From the IMG/VR virus record IMGVR_UViG_3300013136_000027, positions 1 through 31,757 of that record: a stretch of DNA of 31,757 bases. The stretch is one strand, 5' to 3'. Positions 1 through 23,063 of this stretch are shown here, piece by piece; within the stretch, counting starts at the first letter, position 1, and the number at the start of each line of letters is the position of its first letter. Under the pieces are notes generated by a model. It did not search any database. It was not told the origin of the DNA and was given only the letters and a program-made list of their open reading frames with translations. This DNA is from a virus. The position numbers were made by a program, and so were the translations under genes.

Positions 1-1844
1 CCCTTGACATTCATTGTCTGTTGTGATACACTTTGTTTGGAGGTGGTACCAATGTTACGATTTGCACTAACAGAAAGTGGCATATTGATTGACGCTGATA
101 AACTCTTGGCTTTTTCCCCTTCTAAACGAGCCTGGGTTAAACCTTCAATGTCCATGGCTTCCGTACTTGACGCAGACGGCATAACTGACGAGGAAGCAGC
201 GGCCTTGATCGAAGACTCAAGTTCACTCAAAGAACCCGCAGAATAGCCCTTCTTAGCAAAGAAATCCAAATAAAGCTTTTCGGTCTCTTTGCGCAATCTA
301 TTATACTCAGCCATTTCGGCTTCGTTTAACTTATTCACATTCATGGTCCGGAACGGACGATACAATTCGTCCGTTTTTAATTTAAGCGCCCAACCATCAT
401 CCCCCATAATTAACTGATCTTCTACTCCGACCCCATTGCTTGCTTTTGCATCCAGAAATACCCCCATATATCCCGACGGATGCGGCTTAGTTAGATAAGT
501 CTTGATCTTCGCTTCTGGATACTTTTTAATAAAAGATTGGATGACTCCCGGTCCATGAGAGGCCATATCCGGAACGATAAACGTCTGCCTGGCCCAGTCC
601 TTTATCATACTTACATGATAATCAAGCCTATTTTCTTCAATTTTCCTACGATTAACTTTCAATGCCGCGCTGGTCGGACTCTTCGCCCGCATCTCAGCCG
701 TCACCGCTTCGTCGCCTGAGATCCGCTTCACCCCGGGGTTCTCCGCAATTACCTGATCATGTATCACATCTAATTCCTTCTGCGCCTCTACCGCCTTGGG
801 GCGGAAGGCGGCCGCCACGGCTACATCCTCTGGTGAATTTATTATATGTTTACCTGATTTTAATTCAGGGTATTTATCTAGGGTCGCCTGATTAATTGGC
901 TTACCTTTATATATATTCTGGAGAATGGCGGCAGGAATAGCTTTGGTAGCCGCTCCAGATACAGAAGGTTTAGGAAGGTTAGCAACTGCTTCTTGAGCCG
1001 TTTTCTTAGTTATATCTATAGGACCTTTCTTACCAGGAATATTAAGTTCACCCTTTTGGGATTTAAGATCTTCATAAAGCATTCTTACGGTAGATTGTCT
1101 ATTTGCCCAATCTTGCAACAGACTTGGACCAGTTTGACTAATTTGATAAGGTTGTCCAATTACTCCTGGTTGCTGAATAAGTGTAGCCTCTGCTTGTGGA
1201 GCAGTTATTTCTTTTAAGCGTTGCGTTTTGTAAACATCCTTTAAAGTTTCTTCTGCTTTCCAACCGGTAGGCATAAATTTAGAAGAACGTACTACCTGCG
1301 TGGCTTCTTTATCTAATTCCTTCGCTAAAGTTTTCTCTAATAAATTCTGTCGTAAGGCGGCTTTTACTATGCCTGGTCCTGCATAAGTAGCGACATCTTC
1401 TCCGGCTGAAAGTAAAGCACGGGGTATCAATGCCGCAGTTGATCCTTGTTCCCATTCTTGGAACGGAAGTTCTGAACTTAATCTACGGGCTTCATCTGGA
1501 TTTAAGAAAGTAGCTAAAGCTGACTTGCTAGCACTCTCTAATCGTTCTCCTGAAGGAGCCATAATTGCCCCAACCGCCGCCGATCGCGCAGGTTCATAAA
1601 CTCTTGCCAATTGCCTAAGTGGATAATCCGTAGCTTGCTGTGCCGCAACTTGTTCTTGTGGGGTAATCTGTTTAGATATGGTCTGCGGAACTGGCGATCC
1701 TGCCATTGCCGCACCTTTAAGTAAACCTGAATATAATTCTCCAGATGTTAACGCCTTAACAAAATTAGCTAACGAAGACTTCTCTCTTTCACTCGCCCTA
1801 AGTAGACTTTCTTCATCTATAACCTTCTTAAGTTTCTCAGCCAT
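1..1844 (-). CDS. Large phage protein with RelA/SpoT-like domain, C-terminus cut by window edge
   Basis: The frame is open from an ATG at 1844 to the window edge, giving at least 614 residues with no stop. The start lies one base after the stop of the preceding gene, with GGGGA upstream. Residues about 380-480 resemble the synthetase domain of RelA/SpoT homologues: RAKS at 386-389 with Lys396 ten residues after Arg386 (the RxK...K nucleotide site), Asp416 in a DWARQTF context, Tyr459 in SGYMGV (the guanine-stacking Tyr), and Glu475/Gln477 in VEDQ. The usual His four residues after the Tyr is Phe463, and the Arg after the Gln motif is missing. The first 360 and last 110 residues are unrecognised. 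It follows three probable internal virion proteins, so it may be packaged and ejected. Whether it makes (p)ppGpp is unknown; a related nucleotide-transfer activity or an inactive domain is possible. Confidence 0.7.
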   Translation of the reverse strand, partial: MAEKLKKVIDEESLLRASEREKSSLANFVKALTSGELYSGLLKGAAMAGSPVPQTISKQITPQEQVAAQQATDYPLRQLARVYEPARSAAVGAIMAPSGERLESASKSALATFLNPDEARRLSSELPFQEWEQGSTAALIPRALLSAGEDVATYAGPGIVKAALRQNLLEKTLAKELDKEATQVVRSSKFMPTGWKAEETLKDVYKTQRLKEITAPQAEATLIQQPGVIGQPYQISQTGPSLLQDWANRQSTVRMLYEDLKSQKGELNIPGKKGPIDITKKTAQEAVANLPKPSVSGAATKAIPAAILQNIYKGKPINQATLDKYPELKSGKHIINSPEDVAVAAAFRPKAVEAQKELDVIHDQVIAENPGVKRISGDEAVTAEMRAKSPTSAALKVNRRKIEENRLDYHVSMIKDWARQTFIVPDMASHGPGVIQSFIKKYPEAKIKTYLTKPHPSGYMGVFLDAKASNGVGVEDQLIMGDDGWALKLKTDELYRPFRTMNVNKLNEAEMAEYNRLRKETEKLYLDFFAKKGYSAGSLSELESSIKAAASSSVMPSASSTEAMDIEGLTQARLEGEKAKSLSASINMPLSVSANRNIGTTSKQSVSQQTMNVK

Positions 1845-1845
1845 T

Positions 1846-2484
1846 TTATTCCCCGCCAATAGGATATTTAGGTTTTACTGCTGGACCTGCATTGATGTCA
1901 ATGCTGGTATCATAGTTACGCGGCAGTCCGAAGTATTCCGCTAAGAACGATTTTGCCCAAGGATACCTGCGTAAGTATTCTCGGTAGAGAGCCATTTTAT
2001 TAGGTCCTACAATATCTTCTTCTTTTAAATTGCCTAAATCGTTTACGACCGCCTTGTATTCAGTAGTATTATCTTCATAAATCGACCGCCCCGCGCTCAA
2101 TCCCGATCCTTCATTTAATCGCGCAATCTGCCCGATTGTTTTGCCGAGATAATCCCAGGTGTTCGCCTCGCGGCCGAGCGGTTTGTCGATCATGCCGTAG
2201 CCTACGGATTGCATGAAATGCCCTAAATCCGAACCTAATGTTTTTTTGGAATCTTGAATCGTTGCTTGAACCGCTTGCGCTATACCTGGAGAATTTGTTC
2301 CTCCTTGCGATATCTCCTGCGGTACATTCTGCGCAATTACATTAGATAGACTCGGATTCACAGGCATAGGATTTGAATAATCCGGAAAATCCCGAATTGC
2401 CGCTTGGAGTTTAGATTCTTCCAAGATTTTCTTTTTTGCCTCTTCACCCGAAGCACCTTTAAATAAATCACTTAGCCACGCCAT
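1846..2484 (-). CDS. Putative internal virion / ejection protein, 212 aa
   Basis: I do not recognise a family. The protein starts MAWLSDLFKG, with an amphipathic N-terminal helix and a charged segment, followed by a Gln/Ser/Asn-rich linker, a helical middle and a C-terminus with YLRRYPWAKSFLAEYFGLPR. The start ATG overlaps the stop of the preceding gene in a TAATG junction, so it is probably translationally coupled. Its place after the nozzle and fibre genes, between an Ala/Gly-rich protein and the large RelA/SpoT-like protein, is where short-tailed phages keep their ejection proteins. That role rests on position and composition only. Confidence 0.6.
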   Translation of the reverse strand: MAWLSDLFKGASGEEAKKKILEESKLQAAIRDFPDYSNPMPVNPSLSNVIAQNVPQEISQGGTNSPGIAQAVQATIQDSKKTLGSDLGHFMQSVGYGMIDKPLGREANTWDYLGKTIGQIARLNEGSGLSAGRSIYEDNTTEYKAVVNDLGNLKEEDIVGPNKMALYREYLRRYPWAKSFLAEYFGLPRNYDTSIDINAGPAVKPKYPIGGE

Positions 2485-3296
2485 TAGTAATATCCTCCCG
2501 GAAATTTAGTTGGAGAAGCACCAAGGGGGACTGAACCTCCCTGTGCTTGCTGTCTTTTGAGCATTTGCACTAACTGCATCATTTGTTCGGGCGAAAGAGA
2601 AGGTTTCTCTCCGCCCTGTTTGCCCGCTGCCGGAGCCGCTTGTGTCGTAGGCGCCTGGCCCGAGAAGGAGTTGTCAATATTGACATTGACCTGTTCCTTT
2701 TGATTCTTCGCATCTGCTACTTGTTTAACTGCGACATTCCCTACATTTTCTTTTAAGGATGCGTTTGGATCAATCCCAAGTAATTCTCCCGCGGCTAATC
2801 CGGCAACATCTTTTAATAAACTACTTTTTGCGGTAGTCACTCCTAATCCTTCAGCACCGAGTTTTGTGGCAAGAGCTGTACCACCATGAGTTGCGATAGG
2901 CGCAGCAGTAGAAGCTAACGAAGAAACTGCAGGAGCGGATAAGGCACTTGTTAATCCCGCGCCTGATCCACCCGCGAGTCCCCCTACTCCGCCGGCTTGT
3001 CCTACACCAAGCATACTTGCGGCTCCTGTAGAAGCACTCCCGGCAGTTCCGGCAGCGGTCGATCCGCCGCCTAAACCTAAAGCCGAACCTATGGAACCTA
3101 TTCCTTCTCCGATTGCCCCGGCAGCCGAACCTATCCCACTTCCGATAGCGCTTGCAGCACCACCCACTGCGCTTCCTATAGAGCCAAGTGCCTGCATTAT
3201 TGGAGCTAACCACCACCAGATCCCCTGATTGCAGGGTTTGCCTTGGGCAACCCGCTTCGGCCAGAGGAGCTTATCAATAAGTTTAAATAGTCTCAT
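2484..3296 (-). CDS. Ala/Gly-rich glycine-zipper protein, probable internal virion or ejection protein
   Basis: This 270-residue protein has a short basic N-terminus followed, at about residues 30-120, by a long run of GxxxG-like repeats of Gly, Ala, Ser and Ile (for example IGSAVGGAASAIGSGIGSA). That pattern is typical of membrane-inserting glycine zippers. The C-terminal third is Gln/Pro/Lys-rich with LSPEQMMQLVQMLKRQQAQG, a probable helix. Ejection proteins of short-tailed phages often look like this because they insert into the host envelope to form a DNA conduit. The start follows the upstream stop immediately, and the stop overlaps the next start. No specific homologue can be named. Confidence 0.65.
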   Translation of the reverse strand: MRLFKLIDKLLWPKRVAQGKPCNQGIWWWLAPIMQALGSIGSAVGGAASAIGSGIGSAAGAIGEGIGSIGSALGLGGGSTAAGTAGSASTGAASMLGVGQAGGVGGLAGGSGAGLTSALSAPAVSSLASTAAPIATHGGTALATKLGAEGLGVTTAKSSLLKDVAGLAAGELLGIDPNASLKENVGNVAVKQVADAKNQKEQVNVNIDNSFSGQAPTTQAAPAAGKQGGEKPSLSPEQMMQLVQMLKRQQAQGGSVPLGASPTKFPGGYY

Positions 3297-3962
3297 TTAG
3301 AATAGTCCCCATAAATAGGATCCCTGTGTTCTCTGTCCAGCGATCGGTCTCGCCGCCTGAGTGTATGCTCCATAACCCTGTTGCTGGTAGTTCATTACCG
3401 AACCGGGTGTAAATGTAGAAGCATAGTTCGTAGTCGCAGGTTGCGTCGGTTGTGATAAAGGTTGTCGGCCAGCAAGTGAAAGCCCCAGATCCCTGTAGTA
3501 CTTCTGCTGTTGGAATAATTGGTTCTGCATACCTCTTGAGACATAGTCCGCTCCGATAGGGCTACCTGCATTCGTACCTAACTGAGAATTCATATCAGAA
3601 AGATACTGTTGACGCATCCAGTCTGGCATAGAAGTTGCGGTCATTCCTTGCGTAGCCTGATCCGCCATCGTTTCCTGTAAAGCGGCTGTCTTGGGATAAA
3701 GCGCGGCATTAGCTGCATAGTCAGCTTGAGCCAACGGAAGAGCATACTGCTGATACAACGCCATCTGCTGTGCCGCCTCAAGAGGAGCCTGGCGTTGCTG
3801 TTCAGCAAACACCGTAGGCATAGACTGCACCCAGGCGTTGATCGCTTCAGCAGTACTTGGTTGTGGAGCAGGTTGCGGGTAGGAAACTTGCATCGAACTC
3901 GCACCTTTCCACCTTCGGTTCTTAATTTCTAATTCTGGCTTCTTAAAATGCCAATGTAACAT
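3297..3962 (-). CDS. Gln/Ala-rich probable virion protein, 221 aa
   Basis: The ATG at 3962 has a strong AAGGAGGAATT ribosome site and lies 9 bp after the stop of the GNAT-like gene; an internal Met at 3892 is a weaker alternative. The protein is rich in Gln, Ala, Pro and Tyr, with a helical centre (AEQQRQAPLEAAQQMALYQQ) and a low-complexity tail ending in LWGLF. It lacks membrane segments and recognisable domains. Similar Gln/Ala-rich proteins lie between the tail and ejection genes of many short-tailed phages and are often virion components. The role is inferred from position. Confidence 0.6.
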   Translation of the reverse strand: MLHWHFKKPELEIKNRRWKGASSMQVSYPQPAPQPSTAEAINAWVQSMPTVFAEQQRQAPLEAAQQMALYQQYALPLAQADYAANAALYPKTAALQETMADQATQGMTATSMPDWMRQQYLSDMNSQLGTNAGSPIGADYVSRGMQNQLFQQQKYYRDLGLSLAGRQPLSQPTQPATTNYASTFTPGSVMNYQQQGYGAYTQAARPIAGQRTQGSYLWGLF

Positions 3963-3971
3963 AATTCCTCC

Positions 3972-4415
3972 TTATAGTTTCTTATCAACCACGATGTAGG
4001 TACTTTCTACACCGAATCTTTGATGCCAAAGACGGGCAACCGAAGGATGCGCCCATCCACGCACCCGGCTCGCTCCGTTTGCTTTAGCCCAATCGCAGAA
4101 CTGCTTCCAGCAGTCTTGCGTCGCAATCATTCTTCCCCCGATACAGGTCATAAAGGCGATCCGTTCGTTGGGATAGTTTTCAAATTGTACTGTCGCCGCA
4201 CCATATATTTTACCATCTTCTTCTGCTACCAATAAGATCTGTTGGCCTTGAATAATCAGCATCTTTAAGTAATCTACGCCATATTCATTCTGCGAATGCT
4301 CAAGCCCACGCAGAAGCATATAATTAACCTGCGGCCATATCGTATGGATAAAAGCCGGATTAACCTGGTGTACAGTCAATTCTGCAGATTTAGTTTCTAT
4401 CAAGGTGTCACCCAT
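3972..4415 (-). CDS. GNAT-fold-like protein, possible T7 gp13-like internal virion factor
   Basis: The product has 147 residues from ATG 4415, which overlaps the end of the fibre gene; a GTG at 4466 in the same frame would add 17 residues. The layout fits a small GNAT fold: an N-terminal helix-rich part, then ILLVAEEDGKIYGAATVQFE like the beta4-beta5 hairpin of GNAT proteins, then a WKQFCDWAKANGASRVRGWAH helix-strand and an RLWHQRFGV segment. The classic Q/RxxGxG/A acetyl-CoA loop is not clear, so catalytic activity is doubtful. T7-like phages encode GNAT-fold gp13 at the same place, before the internal core genes. Confidence 0.6.
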   Translation of the reverse strand: MGDTLIETKSAELTVHQVNPAFIHTIWPQVNYMLLRGLEHSQNEYGVDYLKMLIIQGQQILLVAEEDGKIYGAATVQFENYPNERIAFMTCIGGRMIATQDCWKQFCDWAKANGASRVRGWAHPSVARLWHQRFGVESTYIVVDKKL

Positions 4416-6043
4416 GTCGGTAAAGCGATATACGCACTTGTCGGTGGCGTGAAATCCGCCGTCCACCTCGCCACGCCCTTACTCCACCTAACCTCATCAA
4501 GGAACCCCATAAAGTAAAGAGTGGATGCAACATTCAACCTACCTATTTCCAAAGGCTCGGTATAGTTGGGAAATGTCCGTGTGGAGGTCGTAGAGCCTAA
4601 ACTCACCCCGTCTTGGTAGATGTTAAAAGCATTACCGTTCCTTACAACTGCGATATGATACCAAGTATCCGCTACCAAAGTTGTATTGCAAGAAAAATTA
4701 AGGTCAGCTTCCCCTGTCTCCGCCATAAACATACGCCAGTATTTCTGACCCGCAGAATCGCCTACCGAGATATGGAACTCATTGGAACTGTCTGTTATCT
4801 GGCTTATCACATAATGCTGTGCGTTAGTTACGGGGAGAACTGGGAAGCGAACCCAGAAATCAATGGTGAATGCCCCGTTGCTTAATGACCAGTCTGCGTG
4901 GTCAGCGGTATTTAAATATGAGCCCCCACCGTCAAAATACCCACTCGCCGTCCCGAACTTCTTTTGGGTAGTAGAAGTGATTACCTGTCCGTAAGGATAG
5001 GCTGGAAGATTAGCAGAGAAATCAGCAGTCCAGCGGGCGATACCTTTTGAAATTCTGAACTCGTCTATCCAACCGTCGTGTCCATCAGATGCATATATTC
5101 CTACTTTAAGAACTGCCGCTACATCACCGACATCGTTTGTTCCGAAGGCGGTTGTTTCGGTAAGTGTTTGGGGAACCCCGTTTTTAAATAAAAGGCAGGT
5201 AGTTCCGTTTCTCACTACCGCCCAGTGGTTCCAACTCCCATTTACATTGACAGCACTTGTAGTTTTATATTCCCCTTTATCAACTCCACCAGAACGGAAA
5301 TAAATCCAAATCTTCCCGTCAGGATTTTCATAAATTGTCCAATAATTATCAGCATCTGCGTATTGGCTTACTACTCCTCCACCCAAATCAAAAGCGTTTG
5401 TCTTCATCCACCAGTCAATAGTAAAGTTTCCCGTCCCAAAACTCCAATTTGCGGAATCTGGCAGAGTCACATTATCTGATGTAGCCCTTGTTAACATCAA
5501 CGACGCTGAACCGAACTTCTTATCAGCGGTATCTAACTGTGCGGAATTAACAAAAGTATAAGCCCCTGCTACGGGGTCGGTGTAGGCGGTCGCAGCGTCA
5601 GAACCGTCAAAGTGAGAGCAGGTCTTAGTGTAAGAGTCGTAGTTGGCGGTGTTGGTGACGGTCTTGGCTCCTGCGTTGCTATCAGTAAAAGTCACTCCGG
5701 CGTCAGAGCCGTCGCAATGGAGCATAAGTTTATTATATGCGTTCGCCTGATCGTGGACTAAGCGGAGTTTCTGTCCGGCGGTGCCGACTCCAAGCCGTGT
5801 CCAGATAGTGCCGTTATGGTAGAGGAAATCTCCCGCGGCTTGCGAAGCGATTGTCAGTGCCGAAACGTTAACCTTATCCGCAGTAGAGATAGTATCAAGT
5901 TTCGTTTCTGCTATGGCAGCACCAGCTGCAAAGTTTTCGTTCCTGAGATTAGCTACCGTGGCAGAACTCATTATATCATTCAACTTAGTGCTCGTTACCT
6001 GGTCACCTTTTACGAATCTTCTGGTCTGCGTGAAATTACCCAT
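4400..6043 (-). CDS. Tail fibre / receptor-binding protein with two LamG-like domains
   Basis: The 547-residue protein has an N-terminal repeat-type segment (residues about 1-95) that is homologous to the whole neighbouring 107-residue protein. Two concanavalin-like LamG_3 domains follow. The first contains FGTGNFTIDWWMKT and later WIDEFRISKGIARWTADFS; the second contains LSNGAFTIDFWVRFP and later FLDEVRWSKGVARWTADFT. These paired signatures (FTID.W near the start, DE.R.SKG.ARWT at the end) are typical of LamG-like carbohydrate-binding domains in phage fibres. It probably binds host surface glycans. The start directly follows the preceding stop (TAA ATG). Confidence 0.85.
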   Translation of the reverse strand: MGNFTQTRRFVKGDQVTSTKLNDIMSSATVANLRNENFAAGAAIAETKLDTISTADKVNVSALTIASQAAGDFLYHNGTIWTRLGVGTAGQKLRLVHDQANAYNKLMLHCDGSDAGVTFTDSNAGAKTVTNTANYDSYTKTCSHFDGSDAATAYTDPVAGAYTFVNSAQLDTADKKFGSASLMLTRATSDNVTLPDSANWSFGTGNFTIDWWMKTNAFDLGGGVVSQYADADNYWTIYENPDGKIWIYFRSGGVDKGEYKTTSAVNVNGSWNHWAVVRNGTTCLLFKNGVPQTLTETTAFGTNDVGDVAAVLKVGIYASDGHDGWIDEFRISKGIARWTADFSANLPAYPYGQVITSTTQKKFGTASGYFDGGGSYLNTADHADWSLSNGAFTIDFWVRFPVLPVTNAQHYVISQITDSSNEFHISVGDSAGQKYWRMFMAETGEADLNFSCNTTLVADTWYHIAVVRNGNAFNIYQDGVSLGSTTSTRTFPNYTEPLEIGRLNVASTLYFMGFLDEVRWSKGVARWTADFTPPTSAYIALPTWVTP

Positions 6044-6370: not shown

Positions 6371-7966
6371 TTACTCCGAGTAGTATTCTTGTGGATACGT
6401 AATGATATTACGTTCATAAATCGTTATGTCATCTGAACCGCTGGTAGCGTTATGCTGTATCTTCAACTGCAGGACTGTCCACTCCCCAAGAGAGTCAATA
6501 GGAAACTTCTTCCTTGCTACATCTTCTCCAGTCAAAGTAAAGGGTAGAGTCTGAGGTAAAGAAGGAGCCGAACCAGCAAGATTCATCGTTCCTAAAAGAG
6601 AATACGAACCGTCATCAGTAGCGGTATAGATGGAGAGATCGTAGTCACCTGAAGCTTTGGCCTTAATCTCTATCTCGCCTGCGCATTTCTTTTTCATCTT
6701 ATCGCCGCAGTCATTCTTCCTTGTCTCTTCCTGGTAGTTGATAGCTGTACTGTTATCGCTTGAGCCGTACCAGGCGCGGTAGACACTACCGTCATTAGAG
6801 TCTACATAGAAAAGCCTTTCCTCTCCTTCATACTTCATCTTCGCCCAGGCGCCTACGTTCCATCCGGTAATGGCCATTGCTGCCGGAACTATGATATTCG
6901 GACCGGCCTGGACCATATTGGAAGGGAAGAACACCCAGACCTCGTTATTATACGTACTCGCTCCAGTAGGAACCGCAAGGAAATACTTATTATCCCAGAA
7001 TATGCCCTGTGCTAAGTGGATATAAGACCAATTCAAGCTGTCATATTGTTCTTTCAAGAGATAACTTAATGGATAGGATTTCTGCAACTGCAGATTATCC
7101 TGCTGCGTTCTGAACACTCCGCGCAGGCCGTCAGGCGCTACGAACCAGACATCATCATTTACTTGGGCTACAGTCTTATTGGCTACACAGCCGATATCCA
7201 AAAGTTTCTCTGGTTTATCTGCAGAAGGATCTGGCGTAATAGATGGATTAAGACCCCATACCTGGTCAGAACCTATTAAGATAAGACCCTGGTCTCTTAA
7301 CCCCACTATCGCTCTCTCTGTGCCTATAGGCATACGAAAGGCATTAGTCGCAGTATCGAAAGCAACTGAGTAATCTGCCGGGAAAGCATCAGAGAAATAG
7401 GCGAGATTTGACTTAACTACCCAAACTCTGTTTCTAAAATAGGTGGCTACCGTAGATTTGGGCGGGGAATCGTTACCTGTTCCAGCGGTAGAACCTAAGT
7501 CCTGCATCGTGTGAGATTGATTCATTCTGAACCAGTTATCCGTTCCATTCCCGACAAGCACAACATCGCCTTCTCCTGATTCACCCGCTTTGATCATAAT
7601 AGTCTGCTTATCTGCGGTAAAATTAGCTTTATGTTCAGTGAAGGTATCTGAACCGGAAGCGGCTGGGGCGGTGCATCCCTGCAAGCTGGTATCCTCTATA
7701 ACTAATAGTTCATTAGTGCCGCCGTCAGGTTCAAAACCTAAAGCACCGCAGCCATAGTCATTAGAAAGGTCTTTACAAAGCGTCATACCTGGTCTTTTCG
7801 TAGATTGACCGGGTACACCAATATCTGCGTTATAGAGGAGAGTAACCTGATTTCCGGCTATATCAGCTCCGTAGAAGCGATTATTCATACCGCCGGAGAC
7901 ATCGCCGATAGCGGCTACTAACTTCTCATCATCTCCGGTCTGATAAACTACATTAAATGGTGTCAT
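6371..7966 (-). CDS. Tail nozzle / stabilisation protein (T7 gp12 or P22 gp10-like)
   Basis: The 531 residues are rich in beta strands and aromatic residues, as expected of a beta-propeller nozzle. The N-terminus carries the motif GGMNNRFYGADIAGNQ followed by LLYNADIGVPGQSTKRPGMT, close to the 'GG.n....p..i....a....N.......g....RpG' opening seen in podovirus tail-tubular-B / P22 gp10 families. The gene overlaps the adaptor gene by 14 bp, the standard adaptor-nozzle order. The product should extend the tail and close the channel until adsorption. Confidence 0.75.
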   Translation of the reverse strand: MTPFNVVYQTGDDEKLVAAIGDVSGGMNNRFYGADIAGNQVTLLYNADIGVPGQSTKRPGMTLCKDLSNDYGCGALGFEPDGGTNELLVIEDTSLQGCTAPAASGSDTFTEHKANFTADKQTIMIKAGESGEGDVVLVGNGTDNWFRMNQSHTMQDLGSTAGTGNDSPPKSTVATYFRNRVWVVKSNLAYFSDAFPADYSVAFDTATNAFRMPIGTERAIVGLRDQGLILIGSDQVWGLNPSITPDPSADKPEKLLDIGCVANKTVAQVNDDVWFVAPDGLRGVFRTQQDNLQLQKSYPLSYLLKEQYDSLNWSYIHLAQGIFWDNKYFLAVPTGASTYNNEVWVFFPSNMVQAGPNIIVPAAMAITGWNVGAWAKMKYEGEERLFYVDSNDGSVYRAWYGSSDNSTAINYQEETRKNDCGDKMKKKCAGEIEIKAKASGDYDLSIYTATDDGSYSLLGTMNLAGSAPSLPQTLPFTLTGEDVARKKFPIDSLGEWTVLQLKIQHNATSGSDDITIYERNIITYPQEYYSE

Positions 7967-8864
7967 AGCTCGCCCACCCCGTAAAAGGTTCTATAGCCGA
8001 AGGGCCTCCGCGTTCCGGTATCCACTGATATCTCTGATTAGGCTGTGTGTTTTCCCTGCCTATCCTCTTCTTCAGTTCGTATTCGTATTTCTGCAAAAAG
8101 TCAGAAGCCTTTTGATACTGGCGCTTATAGAGCCACGCTTCAGATATTGCTCCGCACTCCAGGATATACTCTATATCCCTGATTACCGGAGAAGTGAAAA
8201 TCTCAAAGGTTTCGTTACCATCCGGGCAAACATCAGTCTCTACAGTCAATTGTGTTTCACTGTCAACCGAAGTGACTATAGAGTAAGTCGTATCGGTAGT
8301 ATTCTTAATCCGCATTCCCGGTTTCACTCCGCTGGTGATGAAGGTAGAAGCGGAAGCGATTACTTTGTTTGCAGTATCCGTAGTACAGGTCCCGGTTACC
8401 GAAATAAGGTCTTCGCATTTACGTTTATAAGGCATCGCAATAGTGTGAGTGTTGTTCGGAGTCGGATCAAAGGCTATCTTTCCGAACCCGGAGCCATCAG
8501 ATTTAATACGCTCCTGCAGGATTACATAGCGGGTAGCCGTACCCTGAGTAATAGTACCTCCGGAATAGGCTTCTGTCCTATTCTCCCACCACATACGTTC
8601 GTTCATGCGTCCAAGTTTGAAACCGTCAGTAGTATCGGATACAGCCATCTCCACCTCAAAATCGGAAGGAAGGTTGTACTCCGCAGTACCGCTGATCAAG
8701 GTCAGTGTGTAGTTGTTATTTATAACATCCGAGAAATGGTATTTCTGCCAAACGTCATGGTACTTATCGTTCAACCACCTTCCGATCAACGTGGCAAACG
8801 CAGCGGTAGTGTCCATAACCATATTACCTACGTTGGTCTTCATCTCGTTAAATGTCTTAGCCAT
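7953..8864 (-). CDS. Head-to-tail adaptor (T7 gp11 / P22 gp4-like)
   Basis: The chosen ATG (8864) gives 303 residues; an upstream TTG would add two. The helical start (FNEMKTNVGNMV) is followed by a helix with WLNDKYHDVWQKYHFSDV, then TLISGTAEYNLPSDF. This 'n..y..i..r..W.......g...Y.LP.df' pattern is typical of the tail-tubular-A / gp4 adaptor family that docks under the portal. The C-terminal part is helical (KASDFLQKYEYELKKRIGRE). It is coupled to the nozzle gene and overlaps the membrane-protein gene before it by 8 bp. Confidence 0.75.
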   Translation of the reverse strand: MAKTFNEMKTNVGNMVMDTTAAFATLIGRWLNDKYHDVWQKYHFSDVINNNYTLTLISGTAEYNLPSDFEVEMAVSDTTDGFKLGRMNERMWWENRTEAYSGGTITQGTATRYVILQERIKSDGSGFGKIAFDPTPNNTHTIAMPYKRKCEDLISVTGTCTTDTANKVIASASTFITSGVKPGMRIKNTTDTTYSIVTSVDSETQLTVETDVCPDGNETFEIFTSPVIRDIEYILECGAISEAWLYKRQYQKASDFLQKYEYELKKRIGRENTQPNQRYQWIPERGGPSAIEPFTGWASYDTI

Positions 8865-9357
8865 GTACAAACCTCACTATCGTAGCGAAGAAGCCGCGGC
8901 CGAACTCCTCCACGTAATCTACATCAGACATGGTGCTTATTAAACCCATGCCTACGGCCGATATCAGAGCTTGGGATAGTACCGCCCACCAAGCGTAACC
9001 AAAGAAAAAGAAAGGTAGTGTTGAAATACCAACAAAGAACCCGTGCATCCAGAAGTTATCTTTACCCTTGTTAAAAGGCACCCAATCCCAGTAAGTAGAT
9101 AAAGCAGCACCCATCGCTCCCCAGGTACAGATACTTGCGATCAGCAAGTGTAGCGGAGGTGCTTCATGCCAGAAAAGAAGTAATCCGGTAATGCTTAACG
9201 GCGGTATCAGCCAGTCTCTTATCCAAGAGTGCCGTAGCCATTTCGGTATCCACTTCGGTCGTGCCGTGTCTTCCTGGCCCATTCCACCAGCGCGGTAAAG
9301 AATAGCCGATAATCCTGATAGTATTGCTAAAGCCCCAAGTTTAAGCGGAATTTCCAT
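8857..9357 (-). CDS. Polytopic membrane protein of unknown function
   Basis: The 166-residue protein has about four hydrophobic segments: residues 5-20, 50-65 (PPLSITGLLLFWHEA), 72-88 and 107-145 (FVGISTLPFFFFGYAWWAVL onward). A basic loop with KWIPKWLRHSWIRDWLIPP lies between the first two. It sits among several small membrane proteins and just before the adaptor gene, a position where a holin or other envelope-acting protein is plausible, but no family is recognised. The start has GAGGGTAAACTT upstream. Confidence 0.65.
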   Translation of the reverse strand: MEIPLKLGALAILSGLSAILYRAGGMGQEDTARPKWIPKWLRHSWIRDWLIPPLSITGLLLFWHEAPPLHLLIASICTWGAMGAALSTYWDWVPFNKGKDNFWMHGFFVGISTLPFFFFGYAWWAVLSQALISAVGMGLISTMSDVDYVEEFGRGFFATIVRFVHG

Positions 9358-10463: not shown

Positions 10464-12335
10464 TTAGGGATTTGATACATAACTTGTGAGTATTCCCTTT
10501 GAGAATGTCATTTGAGTAACCTGTCCGCTGGTTCCATCTGAATAAAAGTTTAAGGTTACATCCAGTCCTGCCGTTCCGTTTACATTCATTCCCCCCGTAA
10601 AATTTATATCTCCACTAATATCCAGTTTATAAGAAGGTGTTGCTGTCCCTATTCCTATTCTATCGGTAGAAGCATCAAGATAGAAAAGATTGGCGTCCGT
10701 GTCCCCTTCAATTCTCAAATCATAATCAGCACCTGTGTCGTTTATAATAATTCCTTCTCCACCAGCAGTTAAACCTGTTTTAAAAGTCATTCTATCAACC
10801 AGTGTTTGCAGTGTAGTTCCTGAAGTTGTTTGAACTGGTGTTTGCAAAGAAAGATATTGTGTTGACGCAGTTCCACGACCCATACCAGAAGATATAATAA
10901 GAGGGCAACCATTCCCATTAGAGCTTCCGCCATTGTTTCCACCTCTTAAATAATGTGTTTCTCTGGTTGCACCACCCGCACCATCGTTTCCAAGAAGTAA
11001 AGCATAGTTAGCTGTCGTGCCACCGAATTGTGCGGAAGAAGTTGAGATAATTCCGTAATCTGTGCTATCTATACGAAAAAGAACATTACCGCTTGCAGAA
11101 GATGCGAAGTAAGCGTTGCCAGCGACATAAAATCCGTATCCATTTGGTAAGGTTATACTTTGTCTTATGTTTATCGCTCCATCTGCATCTATTAAAAGTG
11201 CATTACTTGGAAATGTTCCAGAAGCAGGAACAAAACCTGAAGTTGTGAAATTAACTAGGGCTTTCCAAACCTTTAATGTCTTACCACTTCCAGCACCATA
11301 ACCTAAATTATTTGCATAAGTTTCAAATTGAGTGTCGCTTGTTATATGTGCTACCCTGTCCCATTGTGCTCCGTCTGTAAGTGAGACATAATCCCCAATG
11401 GCAAGTTCTGTGGTAAATTGCCCACCACCATCAGAGGTGCAAACCTTTGATGTGTTTACATAAGAAACAAGTCCTGTCGCAGTAAATTTTGCATCTCCAC
11501 GCACAGTTAGTTTATTTGTAGCTCCTGTTACGGTATGATGATTTATTCCAAGTCCATTTCCTGAAACTGCATTATATGGAAATTGAAAATCTATATTATT
11601 AGACAATAACCCTGCCGTTGAAGCAAAAGGAATATAATTTAATGTAAGTCCTGAATCAGTTATATTTGCAAAAGTTACAGTATCACCAGATTTATAATAA
11701 GTATTTGTATCAACAGTAAGAGTTCCGTTTGAAGCAGAGAATTTAACAAAGCCATCTGTTGTATAAGCATTTAATTTTACTGTTCCCGTTTTTGAGATAT
11801 TCAGTCTTTCATATGCCGAAGAATATCCACCTGTATTAACAGTAAAATAACCATTTGCCCCACCTGCACCAAGTGCAAGTTGCCCGTTCAAGTGTTCCGC
11901 AAAGAACCCGAAGGAGTTAGCGGCAAGATTCACTCCTCCGCCGGAGTTATAGTTTGAAGCGGAAAGAAAAATCTGTCCTAAAAGACTGGTGGCTTGGTAG
12001 AAATCTACCGCCACATAAGAAAGTGCGGCAGACGCATTATTGGCTTCTTGAACTATTTTTAATCCAGTTCCCGCACTACCATTAGGGGAGTTTATAGTAG
12101 TTGTCCTAAAAGATGGAGTTGAGGTAGTTTTAACTGCTTGGTTTAAATAATCAACTGAAATAAGTTTCTTATTAGCATCTGTCATTAACGCCTGTGAGGC
12201 AGTTAGCCAGTCTAAAACAGGCGAGGCGGTTACGGTCTGGGGAGTGGGATTTTGGTCGAGGAGGAGGAAAGAGCCGCTTAAATCAGCAATAGACTGATAT
12301 TTATCAAGTTTCTTGATCGCTGCATCGTAAGCCAT
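10464..12335 (-). CDS. Large tail fibre / appendage protein, 623 aa
   Basis: The N-terminal helix (AIKKLDKYQSIADL) is followed by a long beta-rich shaft full of Gly, Asn, Ser and Thr. The C-terminal part contains DRIGIGTATPSYKLDISGDINFTGG, the 'iGiGt.sP..kLdv.G' repeat typical of phage fibres and of proteins upstream of intramolecular chaperones. A full peptidase S74 chaperone is not visible; only about 45 residues follow the motif. It is thus a fibre or tailspike-like protein, probably trimeric. It lies in a separate cluster from the LamG fibre, so the particle may carry two appendage types. Confidence 0.75.
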   Translation of the reverse strand: MAYDAAIKKLDKYQSIADLSGSFLLLDQNPTPQTVTASPVLDWLTASQALMTDANKKLISVDYLNQAVKTTSTPSFRTTTINSPNGSAGTGLKIVQEANNASAALSYVAVDFYQATSLLGQIFLSASNYNSGGGVNLAANSFGFFAEHLNGQLALGAGGANGYFTVNTGGYSSAYERLNISKTGTVKLNAYTTDGFVKFSASNGTLTVDTNTYYKSGDTVTFANITDSGLTLNYIPFASTAGLLSNNIDFQFPYNAVSGNGLGINHHTVTGATNKLTVRGDAKFTATGLVSYVNTSKVCTSDGGGQFTTELAIGDYVSLTDGAQWDRVAHITSDTQFETYANNLGYGAGSGKTLKVWKALVNFTTSGFVPASGTFPSNALLIDADGAINIRQSITLPNGYGFYVAGNAYFASSASGNVLFRIDSTDYGIISTSSAQFGGTTANYALLLGNDGAGGATRETHYLRGGNNGGSSNGNGCPLIISSGMGRGTASTQYLSLQTPVQTTSGTTLQTLVDRMTFKTGLTAGGEGIIINDTGADYDLRIEGDTDANLFYLDASTDRIGIGTATPSYKLDISGDINFTGGMNVNGTAGLDVTLNFYSDGTSGQVTQMTFSKGILTSYVSNP

Positions 12336-13627: not shown

Positions 13628-14449
13628 TTAGAAATACCTCCGTTGCGCTATAATATGAAGATCGAACCAGCTCATAAACCGGCTTGAGTAATTTCTTCTC
13701 TTCAGTATTATGTTGAATCCCAATCGTTCGAGCTCTCTGACCAGCGCTCTTTCCGACCAAAGTATGTAATGCTCCCTCTTCTTGAAATACGGCCAGCCAG
13801 CGACCGTATTCTTGTAAATAAATTCCACATCGGGAGTAGAAATGAATAGTACACCTTTAGGATCAAGAAGCTCATAAGCCTTATTAAGGGCGGCAAGAGG
13901 ATCTGGCATATGCTCGAGAACATGACCCATCCAAATAAGATCAAACTTCCTATCAAGCTTCTCAGCGCCTGTCGCCTGTTTAACCGAATCGTTGGATAAG
14001 CTGAAGTCATAATTTAAGAAATCTCCTTTGTATATGTTGCCTTGCCCTGTGAGTGTCGGGTTAACATCTATAGCCCAGGTCAACCAGCCTCTTTCTTTCA
14101 TCGCAGAGAGGATATACGGCACGCAGAACCCTACATCTAACATCATCCTGCCGAAAGTTAGCTCTTCTATAAGCGGTGCATAGAGCCTTAAGAGATACTC
14201 GTAGCGCTCCTTCGCGGACTTGCCCTCAGCAAGATTAGCTATATACTTCTCATCGTAGGCTTCTAACCCTTCTGGGAACTTATCCTGGAACCAGACACCA
14301 CAACCACACTCAAACCATAAAGATCTATCGCCAGTTTTGCCGTCCTCTATTGCATCTGCCTTTATTGTTTCAACATTGCATATCGGACAGAACTGCGGCG
14401 TTACTTTGATCGTGCTCTTTTCTTTCGATAATACTTCTGATTCGGTCAT
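13628..14449 (-). CDS. Zinc-ribbon class I SAM-dependent methyltransferase
   Basis: The 273-residue protein has an N-terminal Cys set (CPIC at 21-24; CGCG at 48-51), then a class I fold: MMLDVGFCVPYIL (motif I, Asp105-Gly107, with Cys where Gly is usual), AIDVN with acidic Asp128, and FDLIWMGHVLEHMPDP (HxLEH, motif IV region). It matches small-molecule or sugar C/O-methyltransferases found in polysaccharide clusters, including the 'CP.C' zinc-binding N-terminus of sugar C-methyltransferases. Its first 80 bp overlap the HNH gene. It probably modifies a nucleotide sugar or glycan made by the cassette. Confidence 0.8.
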   Translation of the reverse strand: MTESEVLSKEKSTIKVTPQFCPICNVETIKADAIEDGKTGDRSLWFECGCGVWFQDKFPEGLEAYDEKYIANLAEGKSAKERYEYLLRLYAPLIEELTFGRMMLDVGFCVPYILSAMKERGWLTWAIDVNPTLTGQGNIYKGDFLNYDFSLSNDSVKQATGAEKLDRKFDLIWMGHVLEHMPDPLAALNKAYELLDPKGVLFISTPDVEFIYKNTVAGWPYFKKREHYILWSERALVRELERLGFNIILKRRNYSSRFMSWFDLHIIAQRRYF

Positions 14450-14903
14450 CTTCTACCCCATAATGCAGTTTCTTATGGCATTCTTTACATAAGGTGATGC
14501 CATTTTCAACCTTTTCCCGGAATTCAGGATATTCCTTAAAAGATAGAATATGGTGTGCGTGCAATTCCCCACCATGGTGTCCGCATAATACACAAGTCCA
14601 TTCATCCCGCTGATAAACTGCTTTAGCCCAATTTAACCCCAACAATCTATTGCGAAGCAATTTAGTTTCTTTAGTTTTCCCGCCCTTCCAATTAGGACCC
14701 CTTTCACCAAGTTGTGCATGTTTACGGCAATAAAGAGCTCTATGTCTAAAACTTATCGGAGTACCGCAAACCAAGCACTCTCTATTTATCTCGGGTTTTC
14801 TTCTCCCTAAGCCAGAACACTTCCAAGAACAATATTTACCTACGTTCTTCTTGTGTAAATATACCTTAAACTGCTTCTTGCAATACTGGCACTCTTTTAG
14901 CAC
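14370..14903 (-). CDS. HNH endonuclease, probable free-standing homing type
   Basis: The 177-residue protein has an N-terminal Cys-rich treble-clef-like part (CQYCKKQF, KYCSWKC, CLVC), a NWKGGK spacer, and a C-terminal HNH domain with YQRDEWTCVLCG, LHAHHILSF and ENGITLCKECHKKLH. The catalytic His pair and both zinc Cys pairs are present, so it looks active. It overlaps the glycosyltransferase 3' end by 38 bp and the methyltransferase 5' end by 80 bp, as if inserted at the junction. It is paralogous in architecture to the gene at 27794-28480. Confidence 0.8.
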   Translation of the reverse strand: MLKECQYCKKQFKVYLHKKNVGKYCSWKCSGLGRRKPEINRECLVCGTPISFRHRALYCRKHAQLGERGPNWKGGKTKETKLLRNRLLGLNWAKAVYQRDEWTCVLCGHHGGELHAHHILSFKEYPEFREKVENGITLCKECHKKLHYGVEDDRIRSIIERKEHDQSNAAVLSDMQC

Positions 14904-15855
14904 TTAAAACCTCTTCTATTCTTTTATACAGACGCTCAGGAGGAATCCCCTCAGCCATACACCAGGCTGCATGAGTGACGCACTCAATCGGGCATTGTAT
15001 ATCATGGTCGTAAATAAGTCTGAAACACGGACTACAGGCACATTCTGCTTCAAGCGAGTAATCATTCTTAAAGTGCTTAGTTATGTTAATGCGAGTCGTA
15101 TGTCCCAAGAGACCAATCTTCGGTGTCTCGTAGCAACCCGAGGCGTGCAGCACGCCGGTATCCGGAGAGATCACTAAATCTACAAAGCCTGTCAGAGCCA
15201 TCGCTGTCCTTACGGAGATCTTTCCGCTTAAGTTTGTGATGTCGGGGTCTTCGATACTCTCTAACATTTGGCATTTCTCATCTCCTGTGGTAATAAAGTG
15301 GACATTCTTATAGTTCTTTAATACCTCACCCATCACGTAATCCGCCCATGGATAGACTTTCTGATGACCAGAACCGGAGAGCTGCCAGAGTATGTTAAAC
15401 TTGCCGGGGGACAGGTGTTTCCGCGCTTCCTCAAGCTCGAAAGGAGTAAAGTATAGCTCAGGAAGCTTCTGGCAACCCTCTAGTTTGGCCCACTGCTCAG
15501 AGGCATCATAGTAATTACGGTCACAAAGAGCTCTGCGTTCTGCCTTCGTGTAATTATACTGTGGCTGGATGGGATGTAAGGCTACGTTACATTCTAATGA
15601 TTCTGAGAAGTTAATGAATTTATCCGGCTTGATATTCGCTTCAAGCTTTTTCCAATGCTCCGGAAGATCGTCAATGTGCATCTTTTCATCGTGTTCAATA
15701 TATTCATCCACATTCGGGTTTTCCTGCAGAACTTCTTTTCCTCGTTTATTAGTGTTGAGAACGACATAATATCCCAACTCCTTAAGACGCTTTAATACAG
15801 GAGTAATAATCAGCATATCACCATAAGCACCCAAACGTATTACCAGCGCCTTCAT
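14866..15855 (-). CDS. Glycosyltransferase family 9 (heptosyltransferase-like)
   Basis: The 329-residue protein opens with KALVIRLGAYGDMLIITPVL, the GDxL signature of GT9 ADP-heptose:LPS heptosyltransferases. It later has YPWADYVMGEVLKNYKNVHF and LVISPDTGVLHASGCYETPKIGL, the classic 'DTG..H.A......i.l.G' donor-site motif. It transfers a heptose-like sugar to lipopolysaccharide or another acceptor. Two Cys pairs occur near the C-terminus (CACSPCFRL). The last 12 codons overlap the HNH gene, so its original C-terminus may have been altered. The ribosome site is GGAGGAAA. Confidence 0.85.
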   Translation of the reverse strand: MKALVIRLGAYGDMLIITPVLKRLKELGYYVVLNTNKRGKEVLQENPNVDEYIEHDEKMHIDDLPEHWKKLEANIKPDKFINFSESLECNVALHPIQPQYNYTKAERRALCDRNYYDASEQWAKLEGCQKLPELYFTPFELEEARKHLSPGKFNILWQLSGSGHQKVYPWADYVMGEVLKNYKNVHFITTGDEKCQMLESIEDPDITNLSGKISVRTAMALTGFVDLVISPDTGVLHASGCYETPKIGLLGHTTRINITKHFKNDYSLEAECACSPCFRLIYDHDIQCPIECVTHAAWCMAEGIPPERLYKRIEEVLSAKRVPVLQEAV

Positions 15856-16997
15856 TTATATATTTCCTCCCTTGTTCCGTGAGGATAGGCAGCGGTACCA
15901 TAAACTACATTGCACGGAGCGACATCTTTAGTTACTACGGCTCCTGCACCTACTATTGCATTCTCCCCCACGGTCACACCCGGTAATATAATAGCACCCA
16001 TCCCGATTACTGCGCCTTTCTTGATTAAAATCTTGCCCCACTTATCCTTACCTGAAGGTGGATGCTTGTCATTGCTGAAACTGACACGAGGAGCCACAAA
16101 AACATCGTCTTCAATAACGACCCCTTCGGGTATAAAGGTGAAAGCAGATATGCGTACATTATTCCCGATAACAACGTTATTCCCAATCTCGCAAAATTGC
16201 CCAATAGAGCACCCCTTTCCAATCTTGGCTGTAGGATAGATATTACTATTCGGCCAGATTGTCGTTCCACGATCTATGCGGTAAGCCGCATCCAACAGAG
16301 GCACATCCTCTACCTGCTTTAATAATAATTCCATATCCTCTACGGTACAATGCCCGCCCACATAGTCCTTAAAGGGATAAAGCACCGGCTGGCATAAATG
16401 AGACGTCCCTAATGAAAGCATCCCATCATTCCTGCTCTCTTCATAAGGAGTAACAATCTGCTGGTAATCAAGCCCAAAACATTCGCAGATAGCTTCCTGC
16501 TCCTTGGCAAAAGCGATATAAACTCCGTACCGGCACAACTCTAACAACTTCATCAGTTCGGTAGAATCAGTATTATTTACCACCTTGACTGTCATCCCGG
16601 TTTTCTCGAGATACTCCATTACCTTTTCTACGTCTCTGATATTATCGTTGTAAGAGATGTACTTTAGGTAAGTCGTCAACCCCTCAACCATTTTCGGATG
16701 TACGCCGCGCACTGGAGAATGAAAGCAGTTAAATCCTATCTTCTTGGTCGTTCCCACCGGGACAGAAGAGTGTATAACCACATATTTCGGCAGGATGTTC
16801 GTGATATAGCTCTTTACTATCTCAACAAAGGAGTCTGAATATGGAATACAGATATGCATAATATCTATCTTCGCGGGTAACCTAAGTGTCCACTCTGGGT
16901 CTTTTACATCCCCTGAATAGACCTCCGGATATGCTTTCTGCAGTATACTGTGCAACGCCGAGCCTATCTCACCCATTCCAATCACAAGACTGGTCAT
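15852..16997 (-). CDS. Fusion: truncated nucleotide-sugar 6-dehydrogenase plus hexapeptide acetyltransferase
   Basis: Residues 1-230 form a Rossmann domain with GMGEIG (7-12) followed by a helical domain (ELMKLLELCRYGVYIAFAKE) and VGGHC with Cys217, the catalytic Cys motif of UDP-glucose / UDP-GlcNAc 6-dehydrogenases. The usual C-terminal UDP-binding domain is missing. In its place residues about 235-381 form a left-handed beta-helix of hexapeptide repeats (IGKGCSIGQFCEIGNNVVIG; VIGMGAIILPGVTVGENAIV), as in WbpD/WlbB-type sugar N-acetyltransferases. The two functions are successive in UDP-GlcNAc3NAcA-type pathways. The start has GGAGGAAAA. It overlaps both neighbours by 4 bp. Confidence 0.8.
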   Translation of the reverse strand: MTSLVIGMGEIGSALHSILQKAYPEVYSGDVKDPEWTLRLPAKIDIMHICIPYSDSFVEIVKSYITNILPKYVVIHSSVPVGTTKKIGFNCFHSPVRGVHPKMVEGLTTYLKYISYNDNIRDVEKVMEYLEKTGMTVKVVNNTDSTELMKLLELCRYGVYIAFAKEQEAICECFGLDYQQIVTPYEESRNDGMLSLGTSHLCQPVLYPFKDYVGGHCTVEDMELLLKQVEDVPLLDAAYRIDRGTTIWPNSNIYPTAKIGKGCSIGQFCEIGNNVVIGNNVRISAFTFIPEGVVIEDDVFVAPRVSFSNDKHPPSGKDKWGKILIKKGAVIGMGAIILPGVTVGENAIVGAGAVVTKDVAPCNVVYGTAAYPHGTREEIYK

Positions 16998-17926
16998 TTT
17001 TCCTCCATTGCGTCAATTACCGGTTTATAATTATTCCTGAAATCATACTTCTCTTCTGCCCACGCCCGCATACGAGAAGGCGCAAGTTCGTCTTTATCAA
17101 GCCTGGTATAGCAATCCTTCAGTTCGTCAAAGGTAGTCCAAACACATTCTTCCGGAAACTGGATACTTGCTCCCGGCCAGTTATGCACTAATGGTATAAC
17201 GCCCATAGCCATCGCTTCGATCAGGTTCATCGGGCTACCTTCAGCTATAGAAGTAGAGATTATAAACTTCTTATCCTTCAGGAAATTCCTTACGAAATCA
17301 TGATTGTTGCGGTATTGAGAGTTAAACCAAGAGCCTTTTAGTTTAGGCAATACTGTATTAAGATAATAAGTCCTGCGTATGTCCTGGTTTCTCCCGATAT
17401 GCTCTATCCTGACTTCAGGGTTAATCTTATTTAATTCGTGATTTGCCTGCACAAGCAGTTCAATACCCTTCTTTTCGTTTATATCAGCTATAAAAGCAAT
17501 CTGATTTCTATCCTTAAGCGTGCCGTTTAACTGCCACTCCGCAAGGTCAACGCCGTTCTTAATGAAAGTAGGGGTAATATTAGCAACCCTTCGCTTAAAA
17601 ACATGGTAATGCGCTTCATTCAGCATAAACAACTTTTTAATGTTACTCCAATTTATCTTCTCAAGATTAGCCCAGCCATCTGCATTAAATATCTCGTAAG
17701 AACGAAGTATCACATAAAGCGGCTTCATATTGTCTATACGAGACATAAAGATAACAAACTTATCAGCCCAATGAGAAAGCACCTTATCGCACCACTCTAT
17801 GTCTTTAATCCCGTCAGCGATGCGTGGCCCGATAAACCAGCGAAGTTCATGCCCTCTGGACTCTATATACCTTGTCCAGTAAGGAACCCAAGTATTCCTC
17901 CAAGGAGTTACGCAAAGTATCTTCAT
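16994..17926 (-). CDS. GT4-type glycosyltransferase
   Basis: The 310-residue protein starts MKILCVTPWRNTWVPYW and has a GT-B layout. The C-terminal half carries FIKNGVDLAEW, then HIGRNQDI and EGSPMNLIEAMAMGVIPLVH, which is the E-x7-E donor-binding motif of GT4 enzymes. It transfers a sugar from a nucleotide donor to a glycan acceptor; donor and acceptor are unknown. Its start overlaps the preceding methyltransferase stop by 4 bp, so the pair is coupled. Confidence 0.8.
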   Translation of the reverse strand: MKILCVTPWRNTWVPYWTRYIESRGHELRWFIGPRIADGIKDIEWCDKVLSHWADKFVIFMSRIDNMKPLYVILRSYEIFNADGWANLEKINWSNIKKLFMLNEAHYHVFKRRVANITPTFIKNGVDLAEWQLNGTLKDRNQIAFIADINEKKGIELLVQANHELNKINPEVRIEHIGRNQDIRRTYYLNTVLPKLKGSWFNSQYRNNHDFVRNFLKDKKFIISTSIAEGSPMNLIEAMAMGVIPLVHNWPGASIQFPEECVWTTFDELKDCYTRLDKDELAPSRMRAWAEEKYDFRNNYKPVIDAMEEK

Positions 17927-18414
17927 CTTACAAACACCATAAAGTTATAGGCTTCTTTAAGTTCGTTGAACGCATAGTATTCAAGATAGACCAGTTTTCC
18001 TAATCCAATCAGGCTCTCTATCGGAACAATATTGTCTATTGGCTGAAGCGGATGCTGGTTATCCGGCTGATTTATTAAAATTAAGCCGCCTTTCTTGCAA
18101 AACTTCTTAAGCCGTTCCAATGCTTTGGGAACGTCAGGGACATGCTCCAACACATCAAAACAGCACACAACCTCATATTCTTTTCCATCATCCCAGGTGT
18201 ATAAATCCTCATCTATATCTATACCAGTAACACTCTTGGCATAAACCCTCATACAAGTCGTCAATACCTTTGTCCCGCAACCGACATCTAATACTTCTTT
18301 TCTTCTGATAAGATCCGGGACAAGCGAGATAATCTTAAGTATTCTCGCAGAAATCTTCTTTCTCTTGGCGTGCTCGCGGTAGTATTCTTTGATATCCGGC
18401 AGCAATCCTAACAT
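17923..18414 (-). CDS. Small class I SAM-dependent methyltransferase
   Basis: The 163-residue protein has VLDVGCGTKVLTTCM (motif I), VTGIDIDEDL (motif II acidic residue), CCFDVLEHVPDVPKAL (motif IV, xVLEHxxD) and GGLILINQPD (motif VI). The pattern is typical of the Methyltransf_11/25-like enzymes in surface-polysaccharide clusters. It is on the short side because it lacks an extended C-terminal substrate domain. It is coupled to the glycosyltransferase that follows and lies 8 bp after another, so it probably works on the same glycan. Confidence 0.75.
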   Translation of the reverse strand: MLGLLPDIKEYYREHAKRKKISARILKIISLVPDLIRRKEVLDVGCGTKVLTTCMRVYAKSVTGIDIDEDLYTWDDGKEYEVVCCFDVLEHVPDVPKALERLKKFCKKGGLILINQPDNQHPLQPIDNIVPIESLIGLGKLVYLEYYAFNELKEAYNFMVFVR

Positions 18415-18421
18415 CTCAGTA

Positions 18422-22666: not shown

Positions 22667-23063
22667 ACTTACCCTCCCTGTATCTTGTATCGTCCACTAA
22701 CGGAACGCGGTAACGTTCCTCTTTTTCCTTCTGAAGCTCTTTTAGATTATCTTCGAGTATGGGAAGTTGCTGGAGGTGGAACATCACCCTGCTATGCAGA
22801 TCCATAAGTGCCTGCTTATAGCCGATCCAGAACTCCCGGCGCTCCTCTTTCTTAGCTCTATCCAGTTTTCCTGAGACCCAGGTATCGCCTATCTTACCAC
22901 CTACAGTATCTATGATCATGCGGTCAAGAGTAGGCAGGATAGTATTCTTCCAGCCGTCGCTTTCAATAGTATCCTTAACCCTGCGGCAGATCTCTAACTG
23001 CTTATTGAGTTTCTGTTCACTGGCGTTGACTAACTGCTCATGTTCTTCGTTAGAATAACCCAC
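22656..23063 (-). CDS. Hypothetical helical protein downstream of portal, 135 aa
   Basis: The start is GTG with GGAG seven bases upstream, overlapping the portal end by 14 bp. The product is strongly helical: NEEHEQLVNASEQKLNKQLE, then a second helix (DRAKKEERREFWIGYKQALM) and a C-terminal coiled-coil-like stretch (LPILEDNLKELQKEKEERYR). No domain is recognised. Small helical proteins right after portal are common in podovirus-like genomes, but their job is unclear. Confidence 0.65.
   Translation of the reverse strand: MGYSNEEHEQLVNASEQKLNKQLEICRRVKDTIESDGWKNTILPTLDRMIIDTVGGKIGDTWVSGKLDRAKKEERREFWIGYKQALMDLHSRVMFHLQQLPILEDNLKELQKEKEERYRVPLVDDTRYREGKYAP

Follow-up and report, generated by a model that had tools for sequence, protein, structure and literature searches.

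RelA/SpoT domains have been described within large polyvalent proteins of phages by Iyer et al. in 2017 (PMC5512222) and, in the same year, fused to MuF (PMC5512222; PMC5576092), and the large phage proteins embedding a Rel domain have been read as delivered effectors (PMC5512222; for MuF toxins PMC5576092). MuF-linked Rel-type domains produce (p)ppApp and show toxicity in E. coli; Apk2 enzymes are MuF-linked adenosine 3'-pyrophosphokinase toxins of temperate phages, and they can be told from the RSH enzymes by the Syn3 motif (GxN in Apk2, SxH in RSH) and by the Syn4 motif (YH in Apk2, IR in RSH) (PMC12226406). In phage SU10, the structural block ends in the gene run gp20-24, which encodes proteins that the head ejects (PMC9509320). 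Because polyvalent and MuF Rel domains have already been published, the domain analyzed in this work represents a new divergent example rather than a new kind: it adds an SU10-like podovirus to the phages known to carry Rel-type domains and leaves the general picture unchanged. A limited literature search found no earlier report of a Rel-type domain in the SU10-like phage group.

The DNA analyzed (hereafter the window) comes from IMG/VR, where it is a virus record 31,757 bases long; no end repeats were found in it, and its source is an uncultured SU10-like short-tailed phage (podovirus). The gene of interest, at the end of the structural operon (Table 1), is interrupted by the left end of the window. 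Its frame is open from base 1844 down to base 3 and then runs off the contig, so that the C-terminus of the protein is missing and, since no overlap between the contig ends was found, not recoverable from the other end. A TTG start at 1859 can also be read (619 aa available from it), but the ATG at 1844, preceded by GGGGA five bases upstream and placed one base past the stop of the preceding gene, is the better start; residues are numbered from this ATG unless otherwise stated. The original prediction, that this large late-operon phage protein contains a Rel-type synthetase domain, is supported by profiles with shuffle controls, by a structural model and by PF04607-positive phage homologues, and we consider it very nearly certain that the domain is truly, if distantly, related to the Rel-type synthetases, the enzymes of ppGpp-type alarmones in bacteria. 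The segment first pointed out, residues 386-480, corresponds to nt 405-689 and lies inside the 300-720 interval then given; the similarity reaches beyond it, to approximately residues 350-530, including a C-terminal helix (LNEAEMAEYNRLRKETEKLY), which provides a defined domain for assay. The GC3 is 0.26 in residues 1-345 versus 0.51 in the domain (Fisher p 9e-9); by this measure, it is the N-terminal part that stands out, the domain being similar to the window's other structural genes. There is, as expected for module exchange, a mosaic join near residue 330-345, at the domain edge. In an operon whose GC3 is mostly 0.45-0.58, two stretches are low, 798-1844 (0.26) and 10464-12335 (0.25), which suggests that they are recently exchanged modules.

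Like the polyvalent proteins (PMC5512222), the protein harbors its Rel-type domain inside a large phage product; unlike them, its sequence is very divergent and its at least 614 residues show one recognised domain, since the protein is truncated by the contig end. Another SU10-adaptor phage (L058) has the same arrangement, there with the whole polyvalent protein: a gene at the end of its structural genes encodes a 2345-aa protein (L058:3514-10551) with Rel-type, ddrB-ParB and RadC domains; a BLAST comparison of the two proteins aligned the domain only (28.9% identity over 128 residues, E 0.003). Apk2 resembles our protein in having a Rel-type domain in a head-associated (in our case putatively so) phage protein and in the D..R.T and GY.G patterns, but no MuF domain was matched in the 619 aa available, Syn3 has no Asn and Syn4 no YH; neither IapK or Aph1 genes nor HD_4 were found in the window, which ends inside the gene, the downstream side being unseen. 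Tas1 (PDB 6ox6) shares with the region the IKDxARxT and GYxGV patterns, whereas its carrier is a type VI secretion effector and not a putative phage ejection-type protein, for which no immunity gene was seen. The fold, the metal ligands, the Tyr and the conserved flanking helices are in common with RelP/RelQ and RelV-like enzymes; these are stand-alone and chromosomal, while in the phage we find a module of a large protein with altered Syn3 and Syn4. Finally, the domain is 22-27% identical, across its length, to that of Bordetella phage PHB04 (ATI15652.1) and its relatives, although the PHB04-type gene, found in a larger phage and with a different carrier, adjoins the portal gene and is followed, within two genes, by one for an HD-type alarmone hydrolase. 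Altogether, the domain appears closest to those of phage polyvalent/MuF-type proteins and of RelV-like small alarmone synthetases. In PHB04 (L004, MF663786.1), as well as in an Oxalobacteraceae contig (L014), the product of a gene next to the portal has a Rel-type domain at its C-terminus, and an HD_4 alarmone-hydrolase-like gene comes shortly after it, a layout that might represent an effector and its immunity function like Apk2/Aph1, without a recognised MuF domain.

Table 1. Features of the window, in gene direction
Feature	Position	Strand	Basis or remark
Terminase	25116-26504		First of the structural block in gene direction
SU10-like portal	23050-25125		After terminase
Probable scaffold			Between portal and major capsid protein
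Major capsid protein	19908-20837		
Glycan-modifying gene block	13628-19417		Inside structural operon, between capsid and tail genes
Tail-fibre-like protein			Between glycan block and SU10-type adaptor
SU10-type adaptor protein (PF24175)	7953-8870	(-)	Marks the phage type
Protein conserved in related phages	6371-7966		After adaptor
Laminin-G fibre	4400-6043		Followed by a run of family-less proteins, the Rel-like protein last
221-aa protein	3297-3962	(-)	Has a conserved counterpart at this place in the related phages L002 and L003 (~40% identity)
Gly/Ala-rich 270-aa protein	2484-3296	(-)	Probable virion/ejection protein, by position only
212-aa protein, next upstream in operon	1846-2484	(-)	Probable virion/ejection protein, by position only
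Large late-operon protein with Rel-like domain	3-1844	(-)	At least 614 aa, 3' end cut by contig end
N-terminal part of this protein	798-1844	(-)	No known family; GC3 0.26
RelA/SpoT-type synthetase-like domain	255-797	(-)	Residues ~350-530 (ATG numbering); profiles, AlphaFold2 model, fold search
Lys396	657-659	(-)	Aligned with conserved Syn1 Lys of LKSxxR in relatives
Syn2-like D416-W-A-R419, then Q-T	588-599	(-)	Metal-ligand Asp and Arg of DxxRxT; alignment
Lys448 (KIKTYL)	501-503	(-)	Aligned with conserved Lys of VKNRF / FKDYI
G458-Y459 (Syn3 Tyr), then M-G-V-F	468-473	(-)	Alignment; motif definitions from PMC12226406
E475-D-Q477	414-422	(-)	Syn4 metal-ligand Glu and Gln; alignment
Region after the domain	3-254	(-)	Low complexity, continues past contig

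When searched alone, the protein gave no match in Pfam, PHROGs, NCBIfam, PDB sequences, phage records or viral contigs, and the direct comparison with PF04607, proposed at the outset, failed to yield a match even at E 10. For this reason, the domain is here treated as a distant Rel-type relative and not as a PF04607 member, and the conclusions are drawn from profiles that were constructed with intermediate sequences. The first intermediate, PHB04 ATI15652.1, whose domain lies above the PF04607 cut-off, was retrieved with a designed consensus of phage-type Rel domains, 90 aa in length, which itself is part of no profile. When five PHB04-type domains were searched against 398 genomes, they retrieved canonical RelA/SpoT and 12 stand-alone synthetases of 256-269 aa, which, by size and motif, we take to be RelV-like. 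Against a profile of these 17 domains (5 phage and 12 synthetase, the query being left out), the protein scored 27.4 bits (E 1.5e-10, Z = 1) over residues 355-532 (TTG numbering), a score to be read with the mild selection bias of one profile member (L018, same place as L014) retrieved, like L014 and L057-L059, with alignments holding the query among designed consensus sequences; 4000 shuffles and all the other ORFs of the window reached at most 14.6 bits. A further scan revealed related domains in three phage proteins: that of L058, a ddrB-ParB protein more than 1000 aa long (L059), and a protein beside a portal-like gene (L057) in which Pfam names only RelA_SpoT, weakly, and which, as read from its sequence, would be of MuF type. 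When these three polyvalent/MuF-type domains, which share the bias just mentioned, were added, the protein scored 38.4 bits over residues 355-535 in TTG numbering (E 6.3e-14), 4000 shuffles reached no more than 15.9 bits against this 20-domain profile, and every other ORF of the window fell below the protein. Judged by the cut-off that Pfam sets, representative profile members belong to PF04607 (30.6-30.7 bits; 28-34 bits for phage records), and the domain is significantly similar to a profile of accepted members of the Rel-type pyrophosphokinase superfamily. The 12 synthetases alone gave 20.0 bits versus 17.9 for shuffles, the five PHB04-type domains alone produced no separation (7.9 versus 12.4 bits), and with a canonical RelA/SpoT profile alone the protein was not above shuffles. 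A record deposited as 'Enterococcus phage Efs 1-1-1' (L005, OR846646.1) looks bacterial and not phage, because it carries a chromosomal-type Rel gene with housekeeping neighbours.

The alignment shows that the domain keeps Asp416, Glu475, Tyr459, Lys396, Lys448, Arg419 and Gln477. The metal-binding Asp and Glu (RelSeq D264 and E323) and the stacking Tyr (Y308) correspond to D416, E475 and Y459, and in Rel the base of the acceptor stacks against the Syn3 Tyr; the Arg of the DxxRxT motif is common to the phage domain under study, to the RelV-like enzymes and to the other phage members. The six residues on which the original prediction was built (R386, K388, K396, D416, Y459 and E475) are present exactly as it listed them. 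As for Syn1 (RxK...K; RelSeq R241, K243 and K251), K396 is conserved as the Syn1 Lys, but R386 and K388 fall in an insertion of the alignment where the register is ambiguous; since Lys396 takes the place of the Lys of LKSxxR, the RxK...K spacing may be coincidental, and Arg386 and Lys388 are probably not the catalytic pair. The position of the second Syn1 Lys would be occupied, in the family register, by Glu404, or the Lys might be supplied by Lys401, in a region that is poorly aligned and in which the pLDDT of the model is under 50. The motifs GYMGVF (Syn3) and EDQLI (Syn4) correspond to neither the RSH nor the Apk2 signature. The SxH of Syn3 and the IR of Syn4 that mark RSH enzymes are also missing in the RelV-like and phage relatives; thus, the absence of the His and the Arg, which had been correctly noticed and had led to the idea of a specialised enzyme, is no mark of an unusual domain by itself, and that idea is weakened. 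The His of GHxxY, conserved in the relatives, is lost in the domain.

Because of the loss of this His, and of the second Syn1 Lys being perhaps replaced, the domain could be weak or inactive. It is therefore conceivable, although in our opinion rather unlikely, that the Rel-type fold persists with catalysis lost, as a structural or binding module of an ejection protein that interacts with nucleotides, DNA or tRNA, or that blocks host Rel; the missing GHxxY His, the disturbed Syn1 and the GVF and LI of Syn3 and Syn4, which fit neither RSH nor Apk2, would be in agreement with this. Nevertheless, both metal ligands, the Tyr, two or three phosphate-binding basic residues and the Gln have been kept in spite of an identity of 20-30%, and such retention in a very divergent domain would be unexpected if catalysis had been lost. 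Judging from these residues, we regard a catalytically active domain as reasonably likely.

The second issue concerns the place and time of action of the protein. Its gene follows those for terminase, portal, capsid and SU10 adaptor, that is, it lies where ejection proteins are expected, and its placement among the ejection-type proteins relies on this position, because no sequence similarity to SU10 gp20-24 was found. The product of 3297-3962 exhibits marginal similarity to SU10 gp20, and no PF04607 match was found in the available contigs of the related phages L002 and L003. By analogy, the chances that the protein is delivered in the virion with the DNA may be put as even. It might alternatively be an active synthetase made late in the infected cell and not delivered, acting as a late-stage regulator or as a toxin released at lysis; the gene order, which puts the gene in a late structural operon and makes late expression expected, speaks for this, whereas the correspondence of its place with that of the SU10 ejection proteins (PMC9509320) and the reading of large phage proteins with a Rel domain as delivered effectors (PMC5512222; PMC5576092) make it, in our view, unlikely.

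The interpretation to which we incline, by a little, is that of an ejection/polyvalent-type protein of an SU10-like podovirus bearing a Rel-type pyrophosphokinase in its middle, which is packaged, ejected and active on the host. According to this interpretation, the protein would be packaged in the phage head and would enter the host together with the DNA; the domain would then use ATP to pyrophosphorylate the 3' position of an acceptor, which might be GDP/GTP, ADP/ATP or the tRNA 3' end, and this transfer would slow host transcription and translation early in infection. The basis consists of homology, fold, the retained metal ligands and base-stacking Tyr, and the operon position; from it we infer activity, acceptor, packaging, delivery and effect. 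A wider and decidedly tentative proposal is that SU10-like podoviruses inject an alarmone-type synthetase within an ejection protein, giving a small-molecule or tRNA-modifying signal from genome entry, before phage expression, with the unusual active site (GYMGVF, EDQLI) setting the substrate. With Rel-type domains in its virion-associated proteins, a phage would be able to reset the transcription and translation of its host immediately. Rel-type chemistry is also used by some host defences, such as CapRel and toxSAS.

For structure prediction, the sequences used were those of the window proteins and of the related loci only. The AlphaFold2 model obtained from the single sequence had a pLDDT of 44 and was left out of the fold search; that obtained with nine phage homologues (10 sequences) reached 68, with a core of about 80, and has the synthetase fold, even though it is not independent of homology, because its input alignment consisted of Rel-type proteins. 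Foldseek returned only three PDB matches at E < 1e-3, namely Tas1 (the top one, 2.8e-5, 20-21% identity), an exported small alarmone synthetase and RelP. In the VIA-align comparison, RelP, RelQ and Tas1 came first (Z 10.2-11.2, with about 145 aligned residues across the whole domain, flanking helices included), followed by CapRel and RelA/SpoT (Z 8-9). Among the best-matching viral models are phage proteins 980-1320 residues long, one of them annotated as RelA/SpoT and one ART-PolyVal-like. The order of the matches obtained with this model agrees with homology, and the fold comparison put forward with the original prediction thus finds Rel-type synthetases best and no other family better. The fold search did return other nucleotidyltransferases, with Z 7-8, as would be expected if the domain were another member of the Pol-beta superfamily (cGAS-like or terminal transferase) merely resembling Rel; this we judge very improbable, given that both PDB comparisons put Rel-type synthetases at the top, with the whole domain and the flanking helices covered, that the matching sequence profile is one of Rel-type domains, and that Asp, GY and ExQ follow the Rel pattern. 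That a likeness of this kind should arise by chance, from the spacing of residues in an Ala-rich ejection protein with no relation to Rel, as the absence of any match of the protein alone in Pfam, PHROGs, NCBIfam or PDB sequences might have led one to suspect, is scarcely credible, as with the broader profiles none of the 4000 shuffles, and no other ORF of the window, came within 10 bits of the real score.

Some other features of the window may be mentioned. The gene block lying between the capsid and tail genes comprises glycosyltransferases, methyltransferases, a hexapeptide-repeat/UDP-sugar dehydrogenase-like protein and an HNH gene, and its role is perhaps the glycan decoration of the virion or of the host surface. 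The three HNH endonuclease genes (27388-27771, 27794-28540 and 14370-14903) probably encode homing endonucleases, and the right contig end cuts a C5 cytosine DNA methylase, the C-terminal half of which is encoded at 31213-31755.
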